Part shown: piece after piece, positions 2,931 to 25,960 of the stretch
Layout of the letters: each line of letters starts with the position of its first letter
Position numbering within the stretch: position 1 is the stretch's first letter
DNA from: an uncultured bacterium
GTDB lineage: Bacteria > Bacillota > Clostridia > Lachnospirales > Lachnospiraceae
DNA length: 34,339 nucleotides
Direction of reading: 5' to 3'
Assembly: GCA_947177425.1 (NCBI GenBank)
Contig: CAMWUN010000039.1
Span: forward strand, 1 to 34,339
Made by a program: the position numbers and the translations under genes
Notes under the pieces: generated by a model
Told to the model about the DNA's origin: nothing
What the model saw: only the letters and a program-made list of their open reading frames with translations
The model's database searches: none

Positions 2931-2991
2931 CCAAATCTCCCCTATAGAATTAAAACCTCATTGTCCGGTCTGCTGCATGCAGGTCTCCCGT

Positions 2992-3837
2992 CTATCCTTT
3001 AACACCGCCAAGGGTTACTCCTGCAATAATATATTTTGAAAGGAATAAATAAACAAGAATAATCGGTACAATTGCCACCATAATCATCATGTATATTTTC
3101 CCCATGTCAAAATTCATGTAATCGGCGCCGCGGAGCATTGCAATCAGAATCGGCACCGTCATTTTATCCTTCGACTGAATAACCAGGGCCGGTACAAAGT
3201 AGTTATTCCAGGAGCCAACAAAAGTAAATATTGCCTGTACCGCTATGGCCGGCTTCATAATAGGAATGATAATCTGGTTAAAGGTACGGAATTCTTTTGC
3301 CCCGTCAATTCTGGCTGCCTCCACAAGAGACAATGGCAGGGATGACTGCATATAGCTGTACATAAAGTAAAATACGGCCGGAGATGCAATCGATGGAATA
3401 ATCAGCGGAAGCAGGGAATCATACATCCCCATCTTCGTAATCAGTCTCAAAAATCCCATCGCCGTAACCTGCGTCGGCATTACCAGGATAGCCATTATAA
3501 ACGTAAACGCTATTTTTCTCAGTTTAAAATCATAAGCATACAGGCCATATGCGGTCAATGCTGAGAAATAGGTACAGATTGCCGCGGAGCATCCCGAAAC
3601 AACCAGGCTGTTTACAATTCCCCGGAGCATAGGGAATGTCCCGTCATTTGCCACATTCATGAAATTCTGGAAAAAGTAATTACCGGGCAGTGCAGAAAAC
3701 CCTTTCTGCAGATCCGCATGGGAGCGTGTTGCGTTGATGAACAGAATATAGAAGAAAAACAAGCACATAAATGAGAGAATAATAAGTACCAAATGTGCAA
3801 AAATACTCCTTATCCTGTTTGGTGTTTTTCCTTTCAT
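2992..3837 (-). CDS. Sugar ABC transporter permease (MalG/CUT1-like)
   Basis: A 281-aa inner-membrane subunit of a carbohydrate ABC importer. It has a predicted N-terminal membrane segment (residues about 13-34), five further hydrophobic segments, and the cytoplasmic EAA loop EAARIDGAKEFRTFNQIIIPIMKPAIA that docks to the ATPase. Family partners are the second permease just upstream and the binding protein at 4851-6296. AGGAGG lies eight bases before the ATG, inside the end of the previous gene, and the gap to that gene is 2 bp, so the two are coupled. It is the last gene of the operon. No nucleotide-binding subunit is present; importers of this class commonly use a shared MsmX/MsmK-type ATPase encoded elsewhere. 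The substrate is inferred only from neighbours. Confidence 0.92.
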   Translation of the reverse strand: MKGKTPNRIRSIFAHLVLIILSFMCLFFFYILFINATRSHADLQKGFSALPGNYFFQNFMNVANDGTFPMLRGIVNSLVVSGCSAAICTYFSALTAYGLYAYDFKLRKIAFTFIMAILVMPTQVTAMGFLRLITKMGMYDSLLPLIIPSIASPAVFYFMYSYMQSSLPLSLVEAARIDGAKEFRTFNQIIIPIMKPAIAVQAIFTFVGSWNNYFVPALVIQSKDKMTVPILIAMLRGADYMNFDMGKIYMMIMVAIVPIILVYLFLSKYIIAGVTLGGVKG

Positions 3838-4850: not shown

Positions 4851-6296
4851 TTATTCCGGCCACTGAATTTCTGTAATTTCCGGATAACGTTCTTTAATTG
4901 CAGTTTCAAAGTTCGTCTTTGCCTTATCGAAGTCAACCATACCCTGGAAATAATCGCTGAAGGAATTCTGGATCAGTTCAACGCATCCCTGGTCATAAGC
5001 AGAAAGAGGAGCCATTTTAATATTTTCTGCAACAGGGGCAAAATATTTAAACGCATTCTGGCCGCCAAGGAACTCTGATGAGAAGTTTGCATCATCTGTT
5101 GCCGCTTCCCTCATACTGCTCTGGGTATTGGTAAAATCTGTTTTTTCCTTAGAAATCTTAAGCAGATTATCTTTATCGGCAGTTACTGCAAGGATGATAT
5201 CTTTCACATGCTGCGGATTATCTGTGCCTGTACATGCATGAACATAGGAACCGCCCCAATTATATTCCTGGGGAGGATTTGTAACAGCCCATGCGCCGTC
5301 TCCGCCATCCCAGTTTGGTTTCAGTGTAAAGTCAATTCCCCATGCCGGGAAGAGAAATGCAAACACTTTAGACGCAGATCCCATTGCCTGATTCCAGTCT
5401 GAATTCCACTGCCCTTTTACAGTGCTGTCAAGATAACCTGCATCCAGCCATTCCTTTGAATCGCTGACCCAGTTCATAATCTTCTGGTCAACCTTAATAG
5501 TAGTTTCCCCGGGCGCAACCCAGGGTGCGTCAATGCTGTTGCCATACAGACGGAATGTATCCGCATAGGAAGCAAATGTATAATATCCCTTTGCCTTCAG
5601 TTCCGCTGCTGTCGCCTTAATTGTATCCCAGTCTTTTACCTTTTCGCCGATTGTTTCAGGATCGTCTGTGCCAAATACATCCTGGGCAATATCGCGCCGG
5701 TAAACCAGCAGTCCCGGGCAGCACTGCCATGTGGAACCTCTCTGGACACCGTTTTCATCCGAAGCAGTTACCTTTGTAAAAGCATACTGGTCTGCCAGAT
5801 CCGTATCCGGGTCAATTCCAAGATCCGTAAGAGGTATTGCAACATCTGCCGCTGCATCTGTATATTTATTTACATAATCCGTCTCTGACAGGAAGATATC
5901 AACCTTATCGTCCGCCGCCGCATTTGCCTGATTAATCAACGCCTCGTCAAGCTTCTGCTGGTAAACCCCGTCCTGATTCGGGTTTACAACCCAATGGATT
6001 TCCGTTCCGTCTTTTAAGGTAGTGACTGTACCGTCTGAAGAAGTTTCCACAACTTCCGGGTAAACCAGTTCTACCCTCTCACGGAACTCATTATTCCAGC
6101 AGTAAATATTAATAACCTTGCCCTCGTCTGCGGCTGCTGTTTCACCTGCCTGCGCGTCATTCCCGCCCTGCGCATCGGAACCTGACTGCGTATCTGCCGT
6201 TCCCCCTGTCTGGGCACCGGACTGCCCGCCGCATCCGGACAATGTTCCTGCAGCGATTGCTGCCATTAATAAAATACTGACAATTTTCTTTTTCAT
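4851..6296 (-). CDS. Extracellular sugar-binding lipoprotein of an ABC importer
   Basis: A 481-aa solute-binding protein (family 1, CUT1 type). The N-terminus is a lipoprotein signal: MKKKIVSILLMAAIAAG, then the lipobox LSGC with lipidated Cys22. A Gly/Ser/Ala/Asp-rich linker follows to about residue 58. The folded domain starts KVINIYCWNNEFRERV. It should be anchored outside the membrane and deliver an oligosaccharide to the two permeases. AAGGAGG precedes the ATG. Its own promoter (6370-6398), 67 nt upstream, allows expression separate from the phosphorylases. Given the two GH94 enzymes, a beta-linked gluco-, hexosamine or related oligosaccharide is the likely ligand, but the sequence does not fix it. 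Confidence 0.92.
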   Translation of the reverse strand: MKKKIVSILLMAAIAAGTLSGCGGQSGAQTGGTADTQSGSDAQGGNDAQAGETAAADEGKVINIYCWNNEFRERVELVYPEVVETSSDGTVTTLKDGTEIHWVVNPNQDGVYQQKLDEALINQANAAADDKVDIFLSETDYVNKYTDAAADVAIPLTDLGIDPDTDLADQYAFTKVTASDENGVQRGSTWQCCPGLLVYRRDIAQDVFGTDDPETIGEKVKDWDTIKATAAELKAKGYYTFASYADTFRLYGNSIDAPWVAPGETTIKVDQKIMNWVSDSKEWLDAGYLDSTVKGQWNSDWNQAMGSASKVFAFLFPAWGIDFTLKPNWDGGDGAWAVTNPPQEYNWGGSYVHACTGTDNPQHVKDIILAVTADKDNLLKISKEKTDFTNTQSSMREAATDDANFSSEFLGGQNAFKYFAPVAENIKMAPLSAYDQGCVELIQNSFSDYFQGMVDFDKAKTNFETAIKERYPEITEIQWPE

Positions 6297-6415: not shown

Positions 6416-8830
6416 TTAAGAAATATCTAATATAATTTCTGTATGCTCTTTCATCAGCCAGGCGGGAATATAATTTTCCTTCATTTCCGCCCCATCGACT
6501 GTAAGCTTCTTAAATCCTGACTCTGCATGTCCCGGGTTATTTACCACGATATGTAAATGACAGCCTCTGAAATCCTTATCAATCTCAAAGGATTCCCACT
6601 CTTTAGGAATGGAAGGCGCTATTTTAAGCCCATGGAAGTCCGGCCGCATACCCAATATCCCTTCCACGCATCCTACCATAACCGTAGAGGCCGTTCCTGT
6701 AAGCCAGTGTACATGGGATCGTCCAAAATGCGGACTTGCTTTTCCTTCTGTAAACTGCCCATAACAATAGGGTTCCAATTTACGGATTTCCGCCCTGTCA
6801 TTCTGGGCCGCCGGCGCATTTTCCATAAAATAGGTAAAAGCCCGCTCCCCATGTCCGCACAATGCCTCCGCAAGTATGATCCACCCCTGGGACTGCGAGA
6901 AAATACCAGCATTTTCCTTCGTTCCCGCGTTGTATATGACGGCCAGCGCCCCCTCAAATGCATGTTCATGATAGGGAGGATCCATTAAAATCACACCATA
7001 ATCTGTGTTCAGCCTGTCATATACCGTATCAAGCGCTTTGTCAGCCTGTTCTTTTGCGGCAAGGCCGCTGATAACCGCCCAACTCTGGGGATTCAGCCAC
7101 ATATTTGCTTCCGGGTCCGTGCGCTTTCCAATCACCTCGCCTTTCTCTGTAAATCCCCGTATAAACCGGTCTTCATCCCAGCACAGTTTCTGTATATCCT
7201 CCCCCAGTTTTTCCCGGCTTTCGTCCAGATACTTCATGTATTCCCGGTCCTCTTTATACTCTGCAAATTTTCTTAAGATGGACAGGGCAAGATAAAACTG
7301 AAATGCCACAAAAGTAGATTCCCCGTCTTTGCCAAGCCTTAAACAGTCGTTCCAGTCCGCATACAACCCGGCAGGCATACCATGTATTCCCAAATGGTTC
7401 ATGGAAAAATCTATGGCCCGTTTCAGATGCTCATATACTGTGCCTTCATCTTTATTGGCAAAAGGAATGACTTCGTCAATAAAGGAAAGGTTTCCTGATT
7501 CAGAAATATACTTATAAATGGTGGGAAACAGCCACAGAGCATCGTCCGCCCGGTATGCCGGGTGCCCTGTCTCCCTCACGTAGGAAGGGTCGTCCGGCGT
7601 ATCCTCACATCCTGCCTTATGGGTAAACTTTACAAGAGGCAGGCCGCCTCCATTGTCAACCTGTGCCGAAAGCATAAACCGTATTTTCTCTAATGCCATT
7701 TCCGGCGCCAGATGAATCACCCCCTGGATATCCTGCACTGTATCACGGTATCCATATCCGTTGCGGAGTCCGCAGTAGGTAAATGAAGCGGCGCGCGACC
7801 AGATAAATGTCATAAAACAGTTATAGGCATTCCATGTGTTTATCATGGTATTAAATTCCGGGCTCGGCGTTTTTACCTGAAAGTGGGACAGCTTTCCATG
7901 CCAGTAGGAAATCAGTTCCTTTAATTCCCTGTCACATGTCTCTTCCGTATTCTGATATTGCTTTAATATTCTTTCCGCCGCCTCATCGCTTTTCATTCCC
8001 AGAATAAATGCCAGATTTATTGTTTCTCCCGGCGCCAGTGTGAGCTTGGCTGTAAGGGCGCCGCAACCGTTTTCATTATAATTCAGCTCCCGGTCCAGTT
8101 CCCCCCGAATCACCCCATCGGGATTCCCATATCCATGGTATCTGCCAAGAAACCTTTCCCTGTCGCCGCAGTAGGAAGAAACCTCTGCCCCTGCCAGACC
8201 AAAGAATCGCTCTACCACTATCTTGTCGTCCACGTCTTTTCCTTCCTCAAGGCCATCCAGATTCCCATGAATCAACTGGCAGATTCTGTTACCGCAAAAG
8301 ACAGTTCTTGTAATAAATTGTGAATACTGTAAATTTACCTGATCCTGTTCATAATTACTGTTATTTGTAAATTCCCCATACCCTGTAATATTCAGATTTC
8401 TTACAACACCAGAATTATTTGTGAGCCTTAATCTCCAGACCTCATAATCTTTATCCAGGGGAACATAATATAATGCCTCAGAGTGAATACCGCTATAATC
8501 TGCATTCATTCTGGTATACCCTGTCCCATGGCGGCACTCGCTCTTATAAACAGTTAAATCCTTTCCAACCGGCTGCCACGAAGCAGACCAGTAATCCCCA
8601 CTGTCGTTATCACGGATATAAATATAACGCCCGGGACGGTCAAAATCGTTAAAAATATAACGGAGAATCCTCCCATTTGCGCCGGACTTTGCAAAACTGT
8701 AACCGCCTGCATTGTTGGAAATCACTGCGCCATATTCAGGGGAACCCAGATAATTTGCCCAGGGCGCAGGTGTATCCGGCCTGTCAATCACATATTCGCG
8801 TTTTTCATCGTCAAAATATCCATATTTCAT
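6416..8830 (-). CDS. GH94 glycoside phosphorylase (cellobiose/chitobiose phosphorylase-like)
   Basis: A cytosolic inverting phosphorylase that would split a beta-disaccharide with phosphate to give a sugar 1-phosphate and a sugar. The length (804 aa) equals cellobiose and N,N'-diacetylchitobiose phosphorylases. The N-terminal beta-sandwich contains NNAGGYSFAKSG and RPGRYIYIRDNDSGDYWS. The (alpha/alpha)6 barrel has GYGYRDTVQDIQG, the catalytic ADWNDCLRL with general acid Asp near residue 495, and NPQSWAVISGLA. FSQSQGWIILAEALCGHG, HWLTGTAS and KIAPSIPKEW follow. The ATG at 8836 directly abuts GGAGG, so I start at the ATG six bases later (8830). Substrate within GH94 is uncertain. It follows the second GH94 gene by 48 bp in the same transcript. 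Confidence 0.9.
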   Translation of the reverse strand: MKYGYFDDEKREYVIDRPDTPAPWANYLGSPEYGAVISNNAGGYSFAKSGANGRILRYIFNDFDRPGRYIYIRDNDSGDYWSASWQPVGKDLTVYKSECRHGTGYTRMNADYSGIHSEALYYVPLDKDYEVWRLRLTNNSGVVRNLNITGYGEFTNNSNYEQDQVNLQYSQFITRTVFCGNRICQLIHGNLDGLEEGKDVDDKIVVERFFGLAGAEVSSYCGDRERFLGRYHGYGNPDGVIRGELDRELNYNENGCGALTAKLTLAPGETINLAFILGMKSDEAAERILKQYQNTEETCDRELKELISYWHGKLSHFQVKTPSPEFNTMINTWNAYNCFMTFIWSRAASFTYCGLRNGYGYRDTVQDIQGVIHLAPEMALEKIRFMLSAQVDNGGGLPLVKFTHKAGCEDTPDDPSYVRETGHPAYRADDALWLFPTIYKYISESGNLSFIDEVIPFANKDEGTVYEHLKRAIDFSMNHLGIHGMPAGLYADWNDCLRLGKDGESTFVAFQFYLALSILRKFAEYKEDREYMKYLDESREKLGEDIQKLCWDEDRFIRGFTEKGEVIGKRTDPEANMWLNPQSWAVISGLAAKEQADKALDTVYDRLNTDYGVILMDPPYHEHAFEGALAVIYNAGTKENAGIFSQSQGWIILAEALCGHGERAFTYFMENAPAAQNDRAEIRKLEPYCYGQFTEGKASPHFGRSHVHWLTGTASTVMVGCVEGILGMRPDFHGLKIAPSIPKEWESFEIDKDFRGCHLHIVVNNPGHAESGFKKLTVDGAEMKENYIPAWLMKEHTEIILDIS

Positions 8831-16376: not shown

Positions 16377-17417
16377 CTATTTCCCTGTCCGGGTCATCTT
16401 ATCCATCAGGTTTTCTTTCGGACTTTTTTCCGGTTCAATTCCCGCCACCCTTTCAATGAGGGCGGTAAAAAACTTGTCAATCCAGGCAAAGGAATTAAAC
16501 ATGCCGTCCATAGACCATGGCATTTCCGGTGAAATTGCCATGTTGGAATCGTTGACGCTAAATTCATCCAAATCATATCCGTCCGTATGTTCCTCAAAGC
16601 TGGCCGTTACATAACGGACACAGCTTTCAATATCATATTTCGTGGCATATCCCACAAACTGCGCCTGAATGTGCTCCGTCAGCTTCATTCCGACACAGAC
16701 CCGGCAGCTAAATTCCCCGTCCATCTGATAGTTTTCCAAATCCACCCCATAGGTAAAAGAATACAGATACACTTCCTCCTCATTTGCCATCCTGTAATGC
16801 TCAAAGGATAAATCTGATACCGCGCCGGGATAGTTTTCTTCCGCATATTTCTTTATTTTCTCCGCCGCCCGCTCCCAGTCCTGTACATCCTCCGCCGTCT
16901 CCTGTCTCTTATCCTGTATCAGACAGGCAATACATGAAATCCCGTCGCCTGAAAAGGCATAGTTGGCATAAGCATCCCCCGATGAGATAACGCCTACCGT
17001 CCACCCGCCGGGCGTATCCATCGAATATTGCCCCATCTGCGCGCCGCCCTTCGCTTCTTTTCTTATAATGTATCCCTTTCCCGCAGCTTTAAGGGTCATT
17101 CCGGGATAAATCAAGTTTGGATTTGCAATAAGGTCTTTATTTTGTTCCCAAAGTTCCACATACATCCTGCCATCTCCCCAGAGGCTTTCCGCAATGTCCC
17201 ACAGGCAGTCACCGGAACGGACGGCGTATTCCTCCACATCCATCCACAACTCCAGTACCGGTCTTCCCGTTTCCGGCCTTTTTCCATAAATAAGCGGATA
17301 AGCAGCTTCCTGGGCGGAAACCGGAAGCACTGGCATACCTGCAAGTACCAGACAGAAAATACAGAAAATAGCAAACATCTTTACAGCTATGTCTTTTATC
17401 AATACTCCCAATCCCAT
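16377..17417 (-). CDS. Exported LysM-domain protein
   Basis: A 346-aa protein with an N-terminal hydrophobic segment (MFAIFCIFCLVLAGMPVLPVSA, residues about 14-35) that reads as a signal peptide or anchor. A LysM cell-wall-binding domain follows at about 63-110: YAVRSGDCLWDIAESLWGD, then NKDLIANPNLIYPGMTL. The remaining 230 residues are acidic and aromatic-rich, and I do not recognise a domain there. AAGGAG lies seven bases before the ATG. The gene overlaps the upstream membrane-protein gene by 19 bp, so the two are one operon. It likely acts at the envelope with that partner. Control is probably through the Pho-box-like array at 18420-18459. Confidence 0.82.
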   Translation of the reverse strand: MGLGVLIKDIAVKMFAIFCIFCLVLAGMPVLPVSAQEAAYPLIYGKRPETGRPVLELWMDVEEYAVRSGDCLWDIAESLWGDGRMYVELWEQNKDLIANPNLIYPGMTLKAAGKGYIIRKEAKGGAQMGQYSMDTPGGWTVGVISSGDAYANYAFSGDGISCIACLIQDKRQETAEDVQDWERAAEKIKKYAEENYPGAVSDLSFEHYRMANEEEVYLYSFTYGVDLENYQMDGEFSCRVCVGMKLTEHIQAQFVGYATKYDIESCVRYVTASFEEHTDGYDLDEFSVNDSNMAISPEMPWSMDGMFNSFAWIDKFFTALIERVAGIEPEKSPKENLMDKMTRTGK

Positions 17418-18370
17418 ATGCCTGCTCCTTCGCCTAACCAGAGATTTTCCTTCTTTTCCTGACAGGGCAGAACCTCCCCGGCCGTCTCTGATTTATCATA
17501 TTTATCCCAAAATTCGCTTTCTTTCCTGAATGGCTCCAAATCTTCCGCGGATATTTCCACTTTAAATCCTCTGTAGGTAGGCTCATAGGTGATTGACTTT
17601 TCCAGTATCGGGTCAAAAAAGATACCAATGACAAAATTTTTGTCCTCTGTCACATAAAAACTGGGGCGGAACTGATACACTTCATTCAATTGCGCATCTT
17701 CTTTTAAAAACCACGAAAGAAGCATCTCAATCGTCTCATCGCTGCCTAATTCATCTCCCACCTCTTCGCTGTAAACCCTGTCCCACAGTCTGATAAAGTC
17801 ACTGTTAATTTCCAGGATATCCGATAATTCATACGACTGCCCCGTAAGTAAATCCACCGTCAGCGTCCTTTCCGTGAGGTTCGTCATCCATACAGGATTT
17901 CCCGTACAGTATATCTCCTCAAAATTCATGCTTAAAAGATACTGGCTGTGAAAGGCCACATCACAGTTTACGTCACTGCAAAAAAAGGTAAAGTGCTCTC
18001 TCTGGAATTCCTTCACCTCATCGCTGGGGAAAAAGTGCCAGTAATTTGTCCTGTCCATGGCCGCATCATACATCAGCGTATTCAACCGTCCCTGCATCTC
18101 TTCCTCAATCCCTGTAAGGCATGGATATTCGATGGTAAGCACTTCCCCATAATCATATTCATCCGAGTACTCCACAAAATACTGCTCCTTCTGCACCGTA
18201 TACTCCTTGTACCCCTTAGGCGGAAGATTGCTGGCAATCATATACAGCGCTGCCCCTGCCACAGCCACTATAAAAATCACTGCCGCTAAAAGAATCTTCT
18301 TTCCCCTTCCCGGATTTTCCTTCCGGCTCTCCGCCGTATCGCTCTCCCGGATATTTTCTCTTTCGTCCAT
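17399..18370 (-). CDS. Single-pass membrane protein, possibly RsiV/DUF3298-like
   Basis: A 323-aa protein. An upstream ATG at 18427 is open, but GGAGGGG sits just before the ATG at 18370 (MDERENIRES), which I prefer. A charged cytosolic stretch of about 23 residues precedes one membrane helix (ILLAAVIFIVAVAGAALYMIA, about 25-45). The large C-terminal extracellular domain has the pattern EYPCLTGIEEEMQGRLNTLMYD, SMNFEEIYCTG, RTLTVDLLTGQSYELSDIL and FYVTEDKNFVIGIFFDP. This resembles the DUF3298 fold of RsiV-type proteins, though no sigma gene is adjacent, so an anti-sigma role is not supported. It is first in an operon with the LysM protein. Confidence 0.75.
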   Translation of the reverse strand: MDERENIRESDTAESRKENPGRGKKILLAAVIFIVAVAGAALYMIASNLPPKGYKEYTVQKEQYFVEYSDEYDYGEVLTIEYPCLTGIEEEMQGRLNTLMYDAAMDRTNYWHFFPSDEVKEFQREHFTFFCSDVNCDVAFHSQYLLSMNFEEIYCTGNPVWMTNLTERTLTVDLLTGQSYELSDILEINSDFIRLWDRVYSEEVGDELGSDETIEMLLSWFLKEDAQLNEVYQFRPSFYVTEDKNFVIGIFFDPILEKSITYEPTYRGFKVEISAEDLEPFRKESEFWDKYDKSETAGEVLPCQEKKENLWLGEGAGIWDWEY

Positions 18371-18404
18371 AAGTCCCCTCCTCTTACTAATATTCATAAA
18401 GTTT

Positions 18405-18459
18405 ATTATACATGTTCCCTCCATCAAAACTGCATCATTTTTGCATCAAAGTTGCATCA
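18405..18459 (-). promoter_or_regulatory. Pho-box-like array of four heptamers ahead of a -10
   Basis: Read on the plus strand, TCCATCA, TGCATCA, TGCATCA and TGCATCA start at 18420, 18431, 18442 and 18453. That is exactly 11 bp apart with 4-bp AT-rich spacers (AAAC, TTTT, AAGT). On the minus strand a perfect -10, TATAAT, lies at 18410-18405, nine bases from the nearest heptamer, and no good -35 exists. This is the geometry of OmpR/PhoB-family activation, where the box replaces the -35. The responsible regulator is not in the window. Confidence 0.65.
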
Positions 18460-18576
18460 AAAATAATTTTTGCCGGCCCCTGCGTTTCTGCCTGCAAAGC
18501 AGCTTGCACATCAACACTGTTATGCTTCATGCACAGCCTGTCAAATGCTGACACACTCCATAAGCTGTCCTTGTGT

Positions 18577-18735
18577 TTAATTAAAATAAAATCTGGCATT
18601 GGAAAGTTTCATTCCAATGCCAGATTTATCATTTCCCCTTTTACACCCTGCCGTTCTGAATGTCCAGTACGTGTCATTGATTTAACATCTGCTCGTTCAG
18701 ATTGGCCGAACTGTATATCCAGTATTTATTACTGT
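18577..18735 (-). ncRNA. Candidate small RNA, copy 1 of 3
   Basis: A short transcription unit without a conserved reading frame. The promoter is TTGACA (18770-18765), 17 bp, TAAAAT (18747-18742); the predicted start is near 18735. It ends in a perfect 16-bp hairpin, AAATCTGGCATTGGAA (minus strand, 18627-18612) with its complement (18603-18588), followed by TTTTATTTTAATT. The unit is therefore about 159 nt. GTAAAAGGGGAAA just before the hairpin is shared with the other copies. The box ATTACTGTATTT (18728-18739, plus strand) lies at the start site. Confidence 0.6.
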
Positions 18736-18741
18736 ATTTAA

Positions 18742-18770
18742 ATTTTAATACAACTTCCTTAAAATGTCAA
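18742..18770 (-). promoter_or_regulatory. Promoter of small RNA copy 1
   Basis: TTGACA, a 17-bp spacer and TAAAAT on the minus strand form a near-consensus sigma-A promoter. The downstream box at 18728-18739 begins two bases past the -10, where a repressor would block transcription. Confidence 0.65.
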
Positions 18771-18790
18771 TATAAAATTCAAAATATGCC

Positions 18791-18824
18791 AAAAAAAAAT
18801 TGGAAACAGTATTACTGTTTCCAA
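18791..18824 (-). terminator. Intrinsic terminator of the MscS-like gene
   Basis: TTGGAAACAG (18800-18809) pairs with CTGTTTCCAA (18815-18824) around a TATTA loop. On the minus strand nine T bases follow (18799-18791). It lies 76 bp after the stop of the MscS-like gene. Confidence 0.9.
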
Positions 18825-18899
18825 ATGACTTTACATTCACTGCACAGACCATAAAAATAGACTTTAGTAACAAACGCCGCGCTTCACAAGGCTGATAAA

Positions 18900-19673
18900 C
18901 TATGTATGTACTGTAACTGTCTGGTATGGTATTTCTATACCGTTTCCCTTAAATTCTTTTACCAAAGCAATCCGTATATCGCTGCATGCCCGGAAGCTGT
19001 CGTCAAGATTCAGCGTCCACACAATGGTCTTTACTATGACGCCGTTTGCTGTATACGCGCTTGCGGTAACGGAATTCTTTTCCGTATTTAAGGTCAGTTC
19101 GTGTTCCACGCATATTCTGCGCATAATGCTTATTGCTTTTTCAATATCCGAATCAAAAGAAATCTCTATCTCCACATAATTTCCTATGTTCTCTGTAAAG
19201 TTCGTATTGATGATTACGGATGAATCCATAACCGAGTTGGGGACGATACAGCTTTCCCCATTAAACTGATAGATGACGGTATGGCGTATGGTGACATCTT
19301 TTACAATCCCTTCCGCAATCACAGTGCCTCCCTGGATGACTCTTATCTTTTCATCCACATTGTAGGGCTTGGATGCAGATATGGTAATACCGCTTATGAC
19401 ATTTGCCAGCGCCTGCTGGGCGGCAAATGTGGCAATTGCCACAATCAGTGAGCCGCTCTGCAGTAAAACCTTACTGATATCTTTCGTTATATCAAACTGC
19501 TGGGCAAGGCTGTAAATGATGATGATATCAATTGTCAGGTTCACAACCCCTTTTGAAAACCGGAGATGAATCGCCTTGGTTTTTCTTGATGCAAACCTGA
19601 ATATCAGATTTACAATGTAATTCAAAACCAACGCCACAGCAACAAATATACCTATTTTTGCTAAAAAATCCAT
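18900..19673 (-). CDS. MscS-family mechanosensitive channel
   Basis: A 257-aa small-conductance mechanosensitive channel relative. The frame is open to 19838, but that part overlaps the previous gene; the ATG at 19673 (MDFLAKIGIF) has AGGAGC upstream and starts directly with a membrane helix. Helices lie at about 6-27 and 43-60. The pore helix GSLIVAIATFAAQQALANVISGITI is typical of MscS TM3. The beta domain follows, with VDEKIRVIQGGTVIAEGIVKDVTIRHTVI and the signature IVPNSVMDSSVIIN, then an alpha/beta C-terminal domain. It should act as an inner-membrane osmotic release valve. It is 17 bp after the gene at 19691, so the two probably form an operon. Confidence 0.9.
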   Translation of the reverse strand: MDFLAKIGIFVAVALVLNYIVNLIFRFASRKTKAIHLRFSKGVVNLTIDIIIIYSLAQQFDITKDISKVLLQSGSLIVAIATFAAQQALANVISGITISASKPYNVDEKIRVIQGGTVIAEGIVKDVTIRHTVIYQFNGESCIVPNSVMDSSVIINTNFTENIGNYVEIEISFDSDIEKAISIMRRICVEHELTLNTEKNSVTASAYTANGVIVKTIVWTLNLDDSFRACSDIRIALVKEFKGNGIEIPYQTVTVHT

Positions 19674-19690
19674 TTTACAAGCTCCTGTTT

Positions 19691-20617
19691 CTATCTGTTT
19701 ATGGACACTGCCATCCGGTGGTATGTGTGCCTTATCCCGCGGATTGCCACGGAATATGCCATAATGTTTTCTGGCAGTGCAATTCCCGGATATCCGGTGT
19801 CCCCTATATGATGGATGTCGGTTCCCGCCATTTTGCACATAAGGGCAATCCGCTTAACCGTGTCGGTATCCGCGCCTTCCTGCGAAGTCCCGATAGCCGT
19901 AATAGTCAGTACGCCGCGGCTGTGTGCATAGGCAATCAGCTCCCTTACATACTCCATCGTAATCCCCGGCACAGTGCCCGGCGCAGGAAGTAGTATAATA
20001 TCCGCTCCCGCATCGATAAATTCACCGATGTCTTTCTTTGTAATGATATTTTCTCCTCCTTCTCCGCTCACACCGGAGGCATGCATTTTACCTGCCGCAA
20101 GAATCAGCTTATCTTTTAGCCGGGCAGATATCGCCTTTAAAGAATCCGTAATCGCCTTGTTGCTTACCCCGTTTCCCGGATTCCCTGTAAGCAGCACCAT
20201 ATCCACGCCCATTTCCGAAGCCCTCAAAGCGTTGGCAGTGGTGGCTTTCCTTCCCTGTGACATTTCCCATAAAGTATCACTGTTTCCTGCCGCTGTTTCC
20301 TCCTCCACAGGCTCTAAATTTATCCCTATCATTCTTCCCGTGAGACGCTTCAACTCCCTTACTGTATCTTCCGGCGCCACTTTGGGCAGGCCGTGTATCA
20401 CTGGACTTTCCACATCAAACATGTTCAGTAACAGCATATCCGCCCCAAGGGATGCAGCAAACTCCGCATTTGTCACATCCACCAGCGCAGGCATGGTAAT
20501 GCCGATACATTCACATGCCAGCACCCGTCCTTCACTGCCTGCAATGGAACTTAAATAATCTTCTTTTGTAAAATTCTTCAAATCCGACGCTGTGCAGTCC
20601 AACATTCTTTTCGCCAT
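19691..20617 (-). CDS. TIM-barrel-like protein, DUF7916-like
   Basis: A 308-aa cytosolic protein. The alternating strand-helix pattern resembles a phosphate-binding TIM barrel: ALVDVTNAEFAASLGADMLLLNMFDV, RMIGINLEPVEE, MGVDMVLLTGNPGNGVSNKAI, LILAAGKMHASG, DAGADIILLPAPGTVPGIT, VLTITAIGTSQEGAD and AGTDIHHIGDTGYPG. I believe relatives have been labelled haloacid-dehalogenase-like or DUF7916, but the HAD catalytic motif is not visible, so I would not use that name. GGAGG lies eight bases before the ATG. It shares a transcript with the MscS channel. The reaction is unknown. Confidence 0.7.
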   Translation of the reverse strand: MAKRMLDCTASDLKNFTKEDYLSSIAGSEGRVLACECIGITMPALVDVTNAEFAASLGADMLLLNMFDVESPVIHGLPKVAPEDTVRELKRLTGRMIGINLEPVEEETAAGNSDTLWEMSQGRKATTANALRASEMGVDMVLLTGNPGNGVSNKAITDSLKAISARLKDKLILAAGKMHASGVSGEGGENIITKKDIGEFIDAGADIILLPAPGTVPGITMEYVRELIAYAHSRGVLTITAIGTSQEGADTDTVKRIALMCKMAGTDIHHIGDTGYPGIALPENIMAYSVAIRGIRHTYHRMAVSINR

Positions 20618-20703
20618 ATCCAGTTCCTCCGCTACATTTTAATTCATATGTTTCTATTTAACATTTAATAATTCAAATTATAAAAGACAGAAAATTTATA
20701 TGT

Positions 20704-20775
20704 CATTAGGTAAGAAACGAAAGCCCGTGGGCGGGGTGCGCTGTCCTCCGCAGGCTGCCGCTTCTCAACTTAATG
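20704..20775. repeat. 72-bp GC-rich foldable element in the 19691 gene leader
   Basis: CATTA at 20704 and TAATG at 20775 close a GC-rich core with GCCC-GT-GGGC and CCTCCGCAGG mini-hairpins; AAGAA and TTCTC next to the ends also nearly pair. It lies between a predicted promoter (20780-20807) and the gene start at 20617, so it would be in the leader RNA. I cannot assign it to a known riboswitch. The rest of 20618-20703 is AT-rich and featureless. Confidence 0.35.
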
Positions 20776-20779
20776 GCAT

Positions 20780-20807
20780 TGTATAACAATAGTATCTCAC
20801 CAGTCAA
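20780..20807 (-). promoter_or_regulatory. Promoter of the TIM-barrel/MscS operon
   Basis: On the minus strand TTGACT (20807-20802) and TATACA (20785-20780) are 16 bp apart. The start would be near 20773, giving a leader of about 155 nt with the GC-rich element inside it. Confidence 0.55.
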
Positions 20808-20832
20808 AATAAAAAACAAGGAGATTTCACAT

Positions 20833-20983
20833 GCAAAACGAAATCTGGCATCAGAAATTTCATTCCAATGCCAGATTCTCCTGTTCCCCTTTTACGTTGT
20901 GTAGTGTAGATTATTATGGCTGTACTATGAAATCTTATACATCTTCCGCTCTTTAATTCGATGTATTCAATTTCATTTACTGT
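20833..20983 (-). ncRNA. Candidate small RNA, copy 2 of 3
   Basis: Promoter TTGACA (21018-21013), 17 bp, TATATT (20995-20990); predicted start near 20983. It ends in AATCTGGCAT-TGGAA paired with TTCTG-ATGCCAGATT on the minus strand (20877-20842), then TTCGTTTT. In RNA, two stem positions that are A-U or C-G pairs in copy 1 are U-G and G-U wobble pairs here, which pair only in the minus-strand transcript. Shared with copy 3 are GCCATAATAAT and the GTAAAAGGGGAA-like segment. The longest reading frame (MKLNTSN) is not conserved. Confidence 0.6.
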
Positions 20984-20989
20984 ATTTAT

Positions 20990-21018
20990 AATATATTACA
21001 GTTTCCATAATATGTCAA
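20990..21018 (-). promoter_or_regulatory. Promoter of small RNA copy 2
   Basis: TTGACA, 17 bp, TATATT on the minus strand. The box TTTACTGTATTT (20976-20987, plus strand) begins two bases downstream of the -10, the same placement as in copies 1 and 3. Upstream sequence ACAGACTAATTTA is also shared with copy 3. Confidence 0.6.
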
Positions 21019-21045
21019 TAAATTAGTCTGTTTTTTACACATGAT

Positions 21046-21277
21046 AGGTATTTTAAGCGGTATATTTTTTACAATCCCGGCAAAAAGATTATTTACAGCG
21101 GGGAAATGACACTGTATCCAGCGCTCATCGGGACAGCTTATTTAAAAATCGTGTCCGGCAGCGGCGATTCAACGTATGCTGCATATTCTTCCTCAATGTT
21201 TTACGCTGTTGCAATTTCCTATAATATAAAAGAAGACGGGGAGATGTTACTATTGTTCATTTTCCCGCTTTGCTATA
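21046..21277. other. Intergenic stretch with no supported gene
   Basis: This lies between small RNA copies 2 and 3. A plus-strand frame at 21106-21342 reads like protein in part (GTAYLKIVSGSGDSTYAAYS) but runs through the copy 3 terminator and lacks a good ribosome site. It may be a gene fragment; I do not recognise it. Near 21050-21070 a segment on the minus strand (TACCGCTTAAAATACCT) recurs at 21478-21495 upstream of copy 3, so the duplicated unit extends beyond the promoters. Confidence 0.3.
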
Positions 21278-21416
21278 CGCAAACTGACATCAGAAATTCC
21301 TTTCCAATGTCAGTTTCCCGTTTTCCTCTTTACACGATGTAAATTATTATGGCCGTAACTTGAAATCAAATATCTCTGTCCGCCCTGAACATTTCGTATT
21401 CAACTTGATTTACTGT
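21278..21416 (-). ncRNA. Candidate small RNA, copy 3 of 3
   Basis: Promoter TTGACA (21450-21445), 16 bp, TAGAAT (21428-21423); predicted start near 21416. It ends in a hairpin, AAACTGACAT (minus strand, 21316-21307) paired with ATGTCAGTTT (21290-21281). Relative to copies 1 and 2, both stem strands have changed together (CTGGCAT/ATGCCAG to CTGACAT/ATGTCAG), a compensatory base-pair change. The T run after the hairpin is short here (TTTGCG), so termination may be weaker. Confidence 0.5.
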
Positions 21417-21422
21417 ACTCAT

Positions 21423-21450
21423 ATTCTAATACTTTTCCATAAATTGTCAA
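21423..21450 (-). promoter_or_regulatory. Promoter of small RNA copy 3
   Basis: TTGACA, 16 bp, TAGAAT on the minus strand, with the box TTTACTGTACTC (21409-21420, plus strand) two bases past the -10. Confidence 0.55.
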
Positions 21451-21623
21451 TAAAATAGTCTGTATATGGCACTTGACAGGTATTTTGAGCGGTACATTAT
21501 CCCACTTTCCACCATAAAATTCATCATCAGTGCGGCCAAATATCCTTTTTTCCTTTCAGATTTCCCTTCGGCTGTCACCTTCATGGCAAAATCAGTCCCG
21601 AAAGGCTGGCTGACTGTATTCAT
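21447..21623 (-). CDS. Possible small protein or gene remnant (58 aa)
   Basis: The reading frame encodes a 58-residue product beginning MNTVSQPFGTDFAMKVTAEG and ending SSAIYRLFY, basic, with no signal peptide. No good ribosome site precedes the ATG, and its stop overlaps the -35 of small RNA copy 3. The family is not recognised. It could be a remnant of a larger gene. The rest of 21624-21724 is AT-rich with nothing further seen. Confidence 0.25.
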   Translation of the reverse strand: MNTVSQPFGTDFAMKVTAEGKSERKKGYLAALMMNFMVESGIMYRSKYLSSAIYRLFY

Positions 21624-21724
21624 AAACCAGCTTATATAAATATAATTTAAAATTCCGCTATCGGTTAGAATTTTATAACTTTCCTAATAAGGGCCAAGTT
21701 AATCATGTGATTGTAATTATTTGC

Positions 21725-22342
21725 TCATAACGATACCACTGCATATTTTGAATACAGATACAGCAGCTTTTTTCCTTTAGAAAACAAATCCAAAACGCTT
21801 GGGTCGTCAAATGCTTTTAATACATTTAAAACTGCTTCCGTTGATTGGATCCAGTTTACTTTTTCATTTCTGAACTGTTCCCACGCGGAAAGTCTTTCAT
21901 CCCTTTTTCCTAAAATACCATTCTGCTTTGCAGTTTCTTCATACATCTTAAATGTATGGAAAGAGCCGAATGTACTCCCTGTCCCGGTTCCGCATTTATC
22001 TGCATAACTACACAGGGCAAACATCTCCATCCTCGATGCATGTTCCGGGTCAATCTGACTAATATCAATATGGAAAATCTCCTTTTCTCCGTTTATGTTT
22101 GACACAACCTGCACAATGGGCTTGTCGGGAGTAGAACTTTCTAAAAGCGATGCCGTCATCCCATAGACTTCAAGCTGCCCTTCCTCCGGGCACATCGTCA
22201 TCCCCAGAAGCTTACCACCTTTAACTCCCTTGTCTACCTTTGTGACCGCGCAGCAAAACTCCTCCGATGAATCCGGGGTAATTTGTCTTGCCCTCTTTGC
22301 CGGAAGGAACTCCCCTCTGACTGAAAAGTTACTGATTTGCAT
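21725..22342 (-). CDS. Unrecognised cytosolic protein
   Basis: A 205-aa protein without signal peptide or membrane segment. A GTG at 22348 is open, but AGGAGG lies seven bases before the ATG at 22342, so that is the better start (MQISNFSVRGEFLPAKRAR). Visible features are a beta-rich N-terminal half (LLGMTMCPEEGQLEVYGMTA, KPIVQVVSNINGEKEIFHID), then MEMFALCSYADKCGTGTGSTFGSF and a helical C-terminal part with WEQFRNEKVNWIQSTEAVLN. Cys residues are present but form no clear metal motif. It follows the secreted-protein gene by 92 bp with a stem-loop in between, so the two may share a transcript under the box at 22991-23002. Function unknown. Confidence 0.75.
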   Translation of the reverse strand: MQISNFSVRGEFLPAKRARQITPDSSEEFCCAVTKVDKGVKGGKLLGMTMCPEEGQLEVYGMTASLLESSTPDKPIVQVVSNINGEKEIFHIDISQIDPEHASRMEMFALCSYADKCGTGTGSTFGSFHTFKMYEETAKQNGILGKRDERLSAWEQFRNEKVNWIQSTEAVLNVLKAFDDPSVLDLFSKGKKLLYLYSKYAVVSL

Positions 22343-22366
22343 TTGCACACCTCCTTGTATTAATAT

Positions 22367-22394
22367 GCCCTCTCAAATGAAAATTTGAGGGGGC
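22367..22394 (-). other. Intercistronic hairpin
   Basis: GCCCTCTCAAAT (22367-22378) and ATTTGAGGGGGC (22383-22394) form a 12-bp stem with one wobble or mismatch. No T run follows on the minus strand, so it is more likely a partial terminator or mRNA-stabilising hairpin between the two genes than a full stop. Confidence 0.5.
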
Positions 22395-22434
22395 ATTATT
22401 ATATATATGTAGATTCTATTTATATATTACATAT

Positions 22435-22953
22435 TTACGAAGCTGATGGTGATGGAACTGTAAAATTTCTTGACGTTGTTAACGTATTCCATGGATTCAT
22501 CGCATTAGTTGCTTGTGCCCTAGCAGCAATCCTGTTTCCTGCTTCTGCTTCTGTAAAATACTTTCCAGTATGAAAATACCTATATTCCCCAACTACACGA
22601 TTGCCACTAACAATATTTACTTGCTCATAAATATTTTCTGTGCATTGAATATTATTGCTCCAACAAAGCACATTTCTCGCCGTTCCCATAATTTTTATTT
22701 CAATGTGAATTTCATTTCTCTCATCTACCGCTAAATCAGTTATGGATAATGATGAAAGACCTGGTGCTGGTTCTCTAGGCTGTATTTCCTTATTCAATTG
22801 TTCTAATTGTTCTGCCGATAAGCCCAAACTCTTCCATCCATCTGGCAAGTGTCCTTCCTTTTCTGCTGCCATTACATTAAGTCCAGCTCCACAACAAATA
22901 GATAAAATTAGCGCAAATGAAATTATTATTTTGATCCATTTTATTTTTTGCAT
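22435..22953 (-). CDS. Small secreted protein of unknown function
   Basis: A 172-aa protein with a clear Sec signal peptide: basic MQKIKWIK, hydrophobic IIISFALILSICCGAGL, and probable cleavage after NVMAA. The mature part of about 140 residues has WKSLGLSAEQLEQLNKEI, then a beta-rich stretch (LSITDLAVDERNEIHIEIKI, WSNNIQCTENIYEQVNIVSG, GEYRYFHTGKYFTEAEAGNR) and a Ser/Pro tail. I do not recognise the family. AAGGAGG precedes the ATG. Its strong promoter carries the same start-site box as the three small RNA copies and a matching box lies ahead of blaI. This suggests induction by the BlaI/BlaR1 pair, which would make it an envelope-stress effector. That is inference. Confidence 0.78.
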   Translation of the reverse strand: MQKIKWIKIIISFALILSICCGAGLNVMAAEKEGHLPDGWKSLGLSAEQLEQLNKEIQPREPAPGLSSLSITDLAVDERNEIHIEIKIMGTARNVLCWSNNIQCTENIYEQVNIVSGNRVVGEYRYFHTGKYFTEAEAGNRIAARAQATNAMNPWNTLTTSRNFTVPSPSAS

Positions 22954-22983
22954 TATACGCTTCCTCCTTATATTTACTATATT

Positions 22984-23034
22984 AGTAAACGTTTACTGTA
23001 TTTAAATATTAATACACAATCTCAAATATGTCAA
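22984..23034 (-). promoter_or_regulatory. Promoter with palindromic start-site box
   Basis: On the minus strand TTGACA (23034-23029), 17 bp, TAATAT (23011-23006). GTTTACTGTATT (22991-23002, plus strand) lies at the start site, and AGTAAACGTTTACT (22984-22997) is a perfect 14-bp palindrome overlapping it. The blaI upstream box differs from GTTTACTGTATT at one position. Confidence 0.65.
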
Positions 23035-23156
23035 TTACCTATTTGTTAAAATTTACATTTTACCCTAAACAAACTTTTTTAAACTTCCAGACATGCCGAG
23101 GCAGCATGCCCTCCTTGCGTCGTTCCTGCCTTTTCGGCACAAACAATACATGAATC

Positions 23157-23552
23157 TCATAGTTTCCAGTTTCCCAATCCTGTGTTATGCTGTCTTTGAA
23201 AAACACCAATACCTACCGTCGCCACATAATATCCTCTTGCCCAGAATGCTTTATTGCATTTACTTTGTTGCTCCGGATGCCTGTCATATATCATTAGCGT
23301 ACTCTTCCCCTTCAGGTATCCTATAAAATTTGATACGCTTATTTTCGGCGGGATACTTACGCACATATGTACATGATCGGCACACACAGCTCCCTCTATA
23401 ATTTCCACTCCTTTGTATTGGCACAATGTACTTAATATCTTCCGTACATCGAGCCTCAACTGTCCGAATAATTTCCTTTTACGGTATTTGGGTATAAACA
23501 CTATATGATACTGGCATTTCCACCGCGTATGTGATAAACTTTTACTGTTCAT
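23157..23552 (-). CDS. tnpA: IS200/IS605-family transposase TnpA, probably defective
   Basis: A 131-aa Y1 HUH transposase of the IS200/IS605 type. It starts SLSHTRWKCQYHIVFIPKYR, typical of the family, and carries the metal-binding His-x-His at residues 60-62 (ADHVHMCVSIPPK). It continues SNFIGYLKGKST and FWARGYYVATVG. After that point the normal helix with the catalytic Tyr (pattern N-x-x-x-I-x-x-YI-x-x-Q) is replaced by GIGVFQRQHNTGLGNWKL and a stop, so no suitable Tyr is seen. A frameshift or recombination at the 3' end is likely, and the protein is probably inactive. GGAGG lies eight bases before the ATG and is held in a hairpin. No TnpB gene is present. Confidence 0.85.
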   Translation of the reverse strand: MNSKSLSHTRWKCQYHIVFIPKYRKRKLFGQLRLDVRKILSTLCQYKGVEIIEGAVCADHVHMCVSIPPKISVSNFIGYLKGKSTLMIYDRHPEQQSKCNKAFWARGYYVATVGIGVFQRQHNTGLGNWKL

Positions 23553-23559
23553 TTGAAAC

Positions 23560-23614
23560 GCCTCCTATTCTTGAGATTGGCTTGCGACACCTTTCTCATA
23601 TTAACATAGGAGGC
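23560..23614 (-). promoter_or_regulatory. tnpA leader hairpin that covers the ribosome site
   Basis: GCCTCCTAT (23560-23568) and ATAGGAGGC (23606-23614) are perfect complements 37 bases apart. On the minus strand the AGGAGG that serves tnpA is in one arm, so the folded mRNA hides it. This is a known way IS200-type elements keep transposase translation low. Confidence 0.75.
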
Positions 23615-23692
23615 TTTTTATTGGTATCTTCTTCGCTTCCTCTTACTCTATTCTCCCCAGCATAGCTAGGGGATTGGCGATTTCATTCAGTA

Positions 23693-23896
23693 TGCCTTAT
23701 GCCAAGTGGAAGCCAGCGGAATGATATCACTTGTGCCATTCCTTTTTTGGAGCAGATAAAAAATATAGAAAGAAACCAGATACTTGCCAACAGAAGAAAT
23801 GGTAGCTAGAAGCTGATTGACTACAGATATGAACGCGGCGAGAAAAACAACGATTCTCTCCAGAAAAAGGGGGAATCTCTATTTATAAAGCTATAA
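23693..23896 (+). pseudogene. IS5-like transposase remnant
   Basis: A plus-strand frame with one internal stop at 23807-23809 reads MPSGSQRNDITCAIPFLEQI, then ILANRR, stop, KLIDYRYERGEKN and LQKKGES. This follows the IS5-type DDE transposase pattern (GNRNDITCAIPLLEQ, ILADRGYDSDKLIDYIYERGGE, then PSRK). Both ends of the gene are missing, and key residues of the ADRGYDSD segment have decayed. An imperfect hairpin follows at 23923-23956. The remaining sequence to 24065 shows nothing else. Recognition is from memory of the family. Confidence 0.55.
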
Positions 23897-24065
23897 GAAT
23901 GAATAGTATTTCTATTATAAAAAAGAATGCACCTATTAAAATTGGGTAGTATTCTTATTTATGTGTCTATGACATTCGGCCTTATTCCAGAGACTGGGTA
24001 CGGATAGCCCCCCGAAGCCTTGTTCCCTTGCAACTATACTGTAAAACCTCTTTTACTTATTTTAA

Positions 24066-24272: not shown

Positions 24273-25592
24273 TTAGTGAGGGCATGTTGTAAAAGTGGTA
24301 GTGCTTATTAATTCACCTTTATATATTGTGTTACATTTGCTACACTTTTGAGCGCTAAAAACTTTTACGGTACACCCAGCACCGTTTTTACTATGTTCAG
24401 CCATTGTTCCACTTTCCCACTCATGTGAACATCCTCTTTGCGGCACTGTCTCATCATATATTGGATAAATGTTACCTTTTTCATCTATAAATATTTTATC
24501 GCTGCTTTCAAATGCTTCATAGTTCACATCCAGATAAGCGGTACTCGCATCTTCTGCCGAAAATGCAATATCCATTGTTTCGTTTATTTGAGTATCTGGC
24601 TCAATTATTACCATTGGCTCTTCATACGCCAAAACAGAAAAAGATGCCGCAGAGAAAACACATATTGCTGCCGACATCATAAAAATAATTGTTCTCATTT
24701 TTGATTTCTTATCGTATCTTTTGTAATTCATAATCATTCTGGTCCTTTCACATAAAACCTTACTACTGCTTCTTAACCCTATAAACATTTTTCCTAATCT
24801 TCTGCCTTCATACACCGCCCTTTCCAAAATCAAATCTCTATAAGCTCTGCGCTCATTTTTATCCATCTGCACAACAACTCTGCAATCGCAAGTCTCTTCG
24901 TCCAAACGCCGCATTTCGTAAAACAGATAATAGCAAAGCGGATTATACCAGTTAATTGCCACAGCCAGCAGCGACAGATACTGGAACATATTGTCAAGAT
25001 TTTTCACATGCATCAGTTCATGTTTCAAAATAACTTCCAGATTGTCCGACCGCATGTCATTTCCCCAAAGGACAACTACAGGTTCAAAGGTTCCTATTGT
25101 AAAAGTCGCCTTTATCCTGTCGCTGTAAAACACCTTAACTTTCCGGTGTAAGTTTATCTGTCCTTTGACCGATGACACTGTCTGCAAAATCTTCTGGTCG
25201 CGAACGGGCTCCATTAAATTCGCCGCTTTACGGAATTGAATGTATTGGTATATCACCACCAGAAACATAATTCCTACCGCGATGACCCAAATGAAGAGCT
25301 TTGCTTCCCTTTGGAATGTTTCTGAGTAATAAAACGCTTTGTTAATGTATTTATATTCCAGATTACTGTAATGATAAACACCTGCGTCCGATTTCCCCAG
25401 ATTCAGAAATTTCAAAACATTCCGCACTGGATACTTCACCATCTGGAATGGCAATATATAAAACATCAGTGCAGTTCTAAGCACCCACTGATAATGTACA
25501 GCATTTATGTATTTCCCTTTCCATGGCTTCAGCATCAGATAAAAGAGTATAATTATGCTTCCAGTTAAGGTCATACATATTTCAATGTTCAT
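24273..25592 (-). CDS. blaR1: BlaR1/MecR1-like M56 metallopeptidase with an unusual Cys-rich sensor tail
   Basis: A 439-aa integral-membrane signal-transducing peptidase. Hydrophobic segments occur at about 8-20, 37-50, 100-116 and 205-225. The zinc protease motif is HELMH (191-195) with EETCD supplying a third ligand (Glu232 or nearby). A last membrane helix lies at about 303-322 and exposes the C-terminal 115 residues outside. Classical BlaR1 has a penicillin-binding domain of about 250 residues there; this protein instead has an acidic stretch and a Cys-rich tail (Cys388, 407, 417, 420 and 437, with CSKC and TTCPH). It therefore probably senses something other than a beta-lactam, or a metal or redox state. 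It is 2 bp after blaI and would cleave that repressor. Confidence 0.85.
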   Translation of the reverse strand: MNIEICMTLTGSIIILFYLMLKPWKGKYINAVHYQWVLRTALMFYILPFQMVKYPVRNVLKFLNLGKSDAGVYHYSNLEYKYINKAFYYSETFQREAKLFIWVIAVGIMFLVVIYQYIQFRKAANLMEPVRDQKILQTVSSVKGQINLHRKVKVFYSDRIKATFTIGTFEPVVVLWGNDMRSDNLEVILKHELMHVKNLDNMFQYLSLLAVAINWYNPLCYYLFYEMRRLDEETCDCRVVVQMDKNERRAYRDLILERAVYEGRRLGKMFIGLRSSSKVLCERTRMIMNYKRYDKKSKMRTIIFMMSAAICVFSAASFSVLAYEEPMVIIEPDTQINETMDIAFSAEDASTAYLDVNYEAFESSDKIFIDEKGNIYPIYDETVPQRGCSHEWESGTMAEHSKNGAGCTVKVFSAQKCSKCNTIYKGELISTTTFTTCPH

Positions 25593-25594
25593 AC

Positions 25595-25960
25595 CTACTC
25601 CTCTAGTATATCTTTTATCCTATTGGCTTCCTCTCTGGTAATCTTTGCCCCTCCCGACAAAGCACATATAAAATTTTTAAAAGAGCCTTCATAAATCTCA
25701 TCAATAAGATTTTCTGCCAGCCTTTTCTTATATTCCTCCCTCGATATGGCAGGTACATACAGATATCTCCTGTCGGCGGAAATTCTTTTAATCAGTCTCT
25801 TTTCCAACAATTTTGACAAAAAATTATTCAATGTTTGTTTTTTTAATTCTTTCCCTTCTTTTTCCGAAAAATACTGAAGCATGTCTCTGGACAGCATCGG
25901 TTCATTTTTATCCCAGAGTAAATCAAGTATGGCTATTTCCATTTCGGACATCTTTTTCAT
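25595..25960 (-). CDS. blaI: BlaI/MecI/CopY-family repressor
   Basis: A 121-aa winged-helix repressor of normal family length. It starts MSEMEIAILDLLWDKNEPMLS, then has the recognition part KKQTLNNFLSKLLEKRLIKR, the wing RRYLYVPAISREEYKK, and a C-terminal dimerisation helix ENLIDEIYEGSFKNFICALSG, where these repressors are cleaved by their M56 partner. It is the first gene of the blaI-blaR1 pair. A box, GTTTACAGTATT, lies about 25 bp upstream and matches those at the promoters of the secreted protein and small RNAs, so it probably represses those promoters as well as its own. Confidence 0.92.
   Translation of the reverse strand: MKKMSEMEIAILDLLWDKNEPMLSRDMLQYFSEKEGKELKKQTLNNFLSKLLEKRLIKRISADRRYLYVPAISREEYKKRLAENLIDEIYEGSFKNFICALSGGAKITREEANRIKDILEE

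Follow-up and report, generated by a model that had tools for sequence, protein, structure and literature searches.

What is encoded by a DNA segment that recurs three times between protein-coding genes, each time with a promoter of its own, a body without an evident reading frame and a hairpin at its end? This question is raised by a stretch of 34,339 nucleotides from an uncultured, gut-type Lachnospiraceae bacterium (contig CAMWUN010000039.1; the whole stretch is referred to here as the window), in which three related units lie on the minus strand, namely c1 (18583-18770), c2 (20834-21018) and c3 (21273-21450). We contend, from comparison of sequences, that these units are probably a lineage-restricted multicopy family of small RNA genes, with a layout resembling that of the streptococcal csRNAs and the LhrC RNAs of Listeria.

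Three units in two genomes

All three units are built alike: the promoter is followed by TACAGTAA in the start region, then by a body that varies, an AAAGRGGAA box and a 3' hairpin of about 16 bp. In c1, the promoter (TTGACA-17-TAAAAT) lies at 18742-18770, the box AAAGGGGAA at 18633-18641 and the terminator hairpin, with a T-rich tail behind it, at 18589-18627. The corresponding minus-strand features of c2 are found at 20990-21018 (TTGACA-17-TATATT), 20884-20892 (again AAAGGGGAA) and 20841-20878, and those of c3 at 21423-21450 (TTGACA-16-TAGAAT), 21323-21331 (box AAAGAGGAA) and 21281-21316, the last being a hairpin with no U-tract behind it. An earlier inspection of the letters alone (the sequence-only reading) had described three minus-strand units with TTGACA and a -10 element, and their positions, strand and repetition were confirmed, each promoter matching 11 of the 12 consensus letters. 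Promoter-like sites as a whole are not in excess between 17000 and 23300 (21 against 17.0 expected, all sites counted), and four of the 21 reach 11/12, these being the three unit promoters and a site at 20706 outside any unit. A conserved stretch, CATAATAATnTACA, is present in c2 and c3, MscS-like and DUF7916 genes sit between c1 and c2, and the window's genome yielded no fourth copy.

A pattern scan of one genome per species returned four contigs and identified a second set of units in only one of them, from Lachnospiraceae bacterium 1XD21-87 (L065), the others scoring 12-22 bits; the pattern is blind to relatives whose stems differ, and in L065 it picked up two of the three units. With a model made from the window copies alone, the three L065 units, located at the same places as those of the window, score 133.6, 119.8 and 71.2 bits, and the orthologues of c1, c2 and c3 occupy L065 positions 2956-3139, 5274-5434 and 5475-5630. 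The comparison covers 8 kb around the units, over which the order LysM gene, gene 17399, c1, MscS, DUF7916, c2, c3, BlaR1/BlaI is conserved and the neighboring genes form DNA blocks of 83-86% identity. Between BlaR1 and c3, the 207-aa, 172-aa and IS200-like genes of the window (21530-24060) are absent from L065, and the spacing of the c2 and c3 matches is 40 nt there as opposed to 278 nt in the window. The c2-c3 spacer of the window holds a plus-strand open frame (21040-21341) that is absent from the short L065 spacer.

Pairwise alignments of the two genomes show that the units align, while the surrounding intergenic DNA is mostly unalignable, apart from some 80 nt on the upstream side of c3 and a block immediately preceding gene 17399. 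For c1, identical columns amount to 33/42 in the promoter, 42/99 in the body, 14/15 in the box segment and 41/52 from the hairpin to the end; the respective values are 34/42, 60/84, 12/15 and 38/44 for c2 and 35/41, 66/80, 10/15 and 34/44 for c3. By these identities the body has been lost in c1 only, and the box segment of c3 is not its best-kept part.

A separate observation concerns a 71-nt block (window 18401-18471, L065 2839-2909) with 93% identity between the genomes, which contains three 16-nt direct repeats of the CATCAAAACTGCATCA type, with a spacing of 11 nt, immediately before the TATAAT-like sequence of gene 17399. Judged by its sequence, this block looks like an operator of the response-regulator type.

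Conservation of the 3' hairpin

Folding z-scores on the minus strand were -6.78 for c1, -5.77 for c2 and -3.41 for c3, and the plus strand of c2 was also negative (-3.07), as expected, since either strand of a hairpin-encoding DNA can fold. The G-U wobbles would become A-C on the plus strand, so that the pairing fits a minus-strand RNA only. The sequence-only reading had argued this for copy 2, and the argument stands, except that the wobbles occur in copies 2 and 3 alike. It had also pointed to a compensatory change in the stem of copy 3; this GC to AU double change is real, and is accompanied by a second double-change pair, UA to AU, that had been overlooked. Covariation was then to be sought in other genomes, and the three L065 units do carry double changes and wobbles.

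In the alignment of all six sequences (three window and three L065 units), which places the box of c3x, the L065 orthologue of c3, one column off, 94 of 96 hairpin cells form standard pairs. Three of the 16 pairs show double changes, four vary on one side only and nine are invariant, and one pair reads UA, UG and CG across the units. The observed pairing percentage was reached by 3 of 500 shuffles and the covariation score by 2 of 500. Versions of the structure slid along the alignment pair at most 56% of cells, although the original placement has an advantage in this comparison since the structure was derived from c1.

Each copy had been credited with a terminal hairpin, and a hairpin is indeed found in all three; a terminator scan calls those of c1 and c2 and misses that of c3, which is the one without a U-tract. 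Both c3 and c3x retain the hairpin in this form, a hint that it serves for more than termination.

Coding potential, the purine-rich box and putative targets

The expectation of 140-160 nt with no conserved frame was borne out, each unit having about 145-155 nt behind its promoter with no reading frame open in every copy, and a coding reading was rejected on this ground. A start codon at Shine-Dalgarno spacing from the box is absent in all six units, and their pairing with a 16S tail is equalled by 26-67% of letter shuffles.

The box AAAGRGGAA is predicted to be mostly unpaired in every one of the six units (mean unpaired 0.73, 0.68, 0.77, 1.00, 0.67 and 0.81), the corresponding values for all of the sequence preceding the hairpin being 0.37-0.55. 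A predicted 5' stem is common to c2, c3 and their L065 orthologues (52 of 68 cells paired, one double change) and, among 8646 placements, ranks next after those overlapping the terminator. The bodies of c1 and its L065 orthologue, c1x, fold differently and do not have this stem in common with the c2/c3 group.

This layout invites comparison with known multicopy small RNA families, few of which had been well characterized in Gram-positive bacteria at the time of PMC4132741. The CiaR-dependent csRNAs of streptococci (PMC3091779) are likewise encoded by several similar small RNA genes per genome, measure 51-202 nt, in many cases have a conserved unpaired stretch flanked by two stem-loops and have strong promoters under one regulator. 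Unlike the G-rich AAAGRGGAA found here, however, their unpaired stretch is anti-Shine-Dalgarno and anti-start-codon, and their hosts belong to another bacterial order than the window's organism. LhrC1-5 of Listeria monocytogenes (PMC4132741) is similarly a multicopy RNA consisting of a stem-loop, a single-stranded stretch and a terminator, with a promoter element common to the copies and one regulator (LisRK, cell envelope stress), but with three CU-rich sites. The words CCTCC, TCCTC, CTCCT, CCTTT, TCCT and CCCC occur in none of the five units checked (c3x not counted), and because these anti-Shine-Dalgarno or CU-rich words are absent the units are not assigned to the csRNA/LhrC class, even though several copies with their own promoter and 3' hairpin are present (three per genome, c3 lacking the U-tract).

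Complements of the box at up to one mismatch were no more frequent than in the control (40 sites each) and gave no target signal. Within the window, eight complements occur at up to two mismatches against 2.0 expected, three of them being the units themselves. The complement of CATAATAATnTACA is exact in the window at c2 and c3 only, with 14 sites at up to three mismatches against 5.6 expected, and among the retrieved loci it is exact only in those bearing c2 or c3 and in L065. Candidate target loci numbered 30, of which ten were analyzed; nine had a site and none was suggestive.

In the small RNA family that we favor, each unit would produce an RNA of about 145-155 nt, or about 175 nt in the case of c1x, acting in trans through the box and, in c2 and c3, also through CATAATAATnTACA. 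The box, with a structured 5' domain on one side and the 3' hairpin on the other, may pair with mRNAs or bind a protein, and the effects of the copies would be additive, as reported for LhrC and the csRNAs.

Promoter dyad and candidate regulator

A dyad, TGTATT-N8-AATACA, overlies the -10 element in every one of the six units and also in p172, the minus-strand promoter (22997-23034) of a gene for 172 amino acids (22435-22953). It is exact in five of these seven promoters, those of c1 (18733-18752), p172 (22997-23016) and the three L065 units, and has one mismatch in c2 (20981-21000) and two in c3 (21414-21433). The window's genome contains two exact copies, both in these promoters, and a longer dyad pattern with CAGTAA, at up to three mismatches, has five matches in the genome, four of them here, with none in the control. 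In the 8 kb of L065, the three unit dyads are the only matches at up to two mismatches, and 6 of 200 shuffles reach three. The p172 promoter agrees with those of the units in 31-34 of 44-45 columns, the units agreeing among themselves in 33-38, and nothing visible beyond the promoter is common to p172 and the units. Since the dyad is common to the six unit promoters and p172, the units look co-regulated, together with the 172-aa gene; a repressor would bind the dyad over the -10 and, once released, the copies and this gene would be switched on together.

Two further elements were noticed in the vicinity. A palindrome, AGTAAACGTTTACT, lies at 22972-23002, just downstream of the p172 dyad, and resembles DNA upstream of blaI, and an element TACCGYTYAAAATACCT is found upstream of c2 and c3 (21045-21066 and 21477-21498) and of the L065 c3 orthologue, though not of c1, and may be a possible second regulatory site.

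The candidate regulator of the units is a pair of minus-strand genes (24273-25960) encoding BlaR1-like (24273-25592) and BlaI-like (25595-25960) proteins, for which the sequence evidence points both ways. The pair adjoins the units in both genomes, with L065 identities of 97% for the BlaI-like and 74% for the BlaR1-like protein, and the Pfam models Penicillinase_R and Peptidase_M56 score above cut-off in the BlaI-like and BlaR1-like proteins, while matches to the NCBIfam BlaR1 and BlaI models stay far under their cut-offs. The DNA upstream of blaI has AATACWGTAAAC in common with p172, and AATACTGTAAACATTTA upstream of blaI, kept in L065, is similar to AATACAGTAAACGTTTA of p172. At up to one mismatch, AATACWGTAAAY occurs seven times in the window against 0.82 expected, upstream of blaI, at p172 (two sites), at c2 and at c3, and also at 8323 and 17358 without a link to any unit. 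The dyad, in contrast, was not found upstream of blaI at up to two mismatches, and the operator TACANNTGTA has no match in the window, where other operator forms may apply. What the window and L065 have in common with the BlaI/BlaR1-type systems of PMC7253601 is the gene pair next to the units; they differ in that the TACANNTGTA operator is absent from the window and the dyad reads TGTA...TACA. It can be speculated, as a rather unlikely extension, that this sensor acts chiefly through the small RNAs, its membrane protease freeing the -10 dyads of the three RNA genes and the nearby protein gene together.

Distribution of the family

Rfam 15 gave no match at gathering cut-offs across the whole window, relaxed searches of the units gave three and seven matches, all far under the cut-offs, and no published description of this small RNA family was found in the open-licence literature. 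The genomes sampled comprised 37 of the genus, 392 of the order and 397 of the family; these samples overlap, are incomplete and each include the window's own genome, as do the counts below, and searches over 40 genomes were run with stricter filters. In the genus, model R1 matched 23 of the 37 genomes at E <=1, the best foreign match scoring 33.5 bits, to be compared with 31.1 bits for the window's own hairpin when read on the wrong strand; inspection covered the DNA at nine of these loci and the alignments at five. In the order, it matched 4/392 genomes at E <=0.01 (best foreign match 36.4 bits; alignments inspected for two of three foreign loci), and in the family model R2 matched a single genome of the 397, its own. 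A DNA search matched 11 of 60 genomes at E <=0.01; in the six loci inspected, from four genomes, the match was confined to the promoter end of the query, and six further loci were weaker (E 0.0015-0.0094). The DUF7916 gene was found in 17 of the 37 genus genomes, none of the 22 foreign loci has a unit nearby, and the five longer ones differ from the window in their neighboring genes.

The proposal of a multicopy regulatory RNA family is therefore upheld in one respect, in that the L065 units argue for a family, and narrowed in another: with no further convincing relative in the genus, order and family samples, its range appears smaller than the Lachnospiraceae.

One other genome (G019, loci L011, L021 and L022) has three similar promoters within about 1.5 kb, ahead of different frames; the spacer that separates the -35 from the -10 contains a TATTGCGCAATA-like inverted repeat, which is followed by TTACAGTAAAGG or a variant.

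Alternative explanations

Several observations weigh against a small RNA family. The family is known from two genomes only, the body of c1 is poorly conserved between them (42/99), as is the box segment of c3 (10/15), and a U-tract is missing from c3. For the hairpin, 26 of 500 shuffles reached the number of double-change pairs and 128 of 500 that of pair types. At up to one mismatch the dyad is unspecific, with 33 sites in the window's genome against 25 in the control, the L065 c3 orthologue contains a 45-codon open frame that the other five units do not have, and no target stood out.

Of the other explanations, the one that survives best, improbable as we consider it, is that the units are cis-acting leaders, in which the c1 and c2 hairpins would set read-through into gene 17399-18370 and the DUF7916 gene. 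Both units lie upstream of these same genes, on the same strand, in both genomes, and about 180-280 nt separate the ends of their hairpins from the start codons. Yet c3 precedes c2 rather than a gene, the DNA from hairpin to gene is mostly unalignable, the exception by gene 17399 being a block with its own TATAAT-like sequence, and no antiterminator appeared in the folds made, which included no dedicated search for one.

Quite improbable is a sponge, in which the RNAs would use GGA motifs to titrate a protein that binds RNA, for instance CsrA. CsrA is encoded in the genome and GGA occurs within the box and the upper stem, but none of the six units is enriched in the motif, their 2-5 copies being equalled by 14-70% of letter shuffles.

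The sequence-only reading had itself offered the alternative that the units are what is left of a repeated gene, with promoter and terminator retained. The same promoter type at the 172-aa gene, the diverged body of c1 and the tailless hairpin of c3 would agree with decay, but p172 resembles the units in the promoter only, and the bodies of c2 and c3 are kept. This explanation is disfavored, and we regard it as very improbable, because promoter and hairpin have been kept, compensatory changes included, in three units and two genomes. A dispersed or mobile repeat, suggested by repeated units near an IS200-like gene, is the least probable of all and largely refuted by the fixed positions, there being only three copies in the genome, all at the same sites in L065, while c2 had no match in plasmids or phages and three viral pattern scans gave none.

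Significance

If the speculative link to the BlaI/BlaR1-like sensor were true, non-coding RNAs working through a purine-rich box would come under the control of a repressor system familiar from resistance genes. The small RNA family that we favor has no match in Rfam and occupies three fixed places in two genomes, and as its operator-like dyad also occurs at a nearby protein gene, co-regulation of the RNAs with that gene is directly testable.

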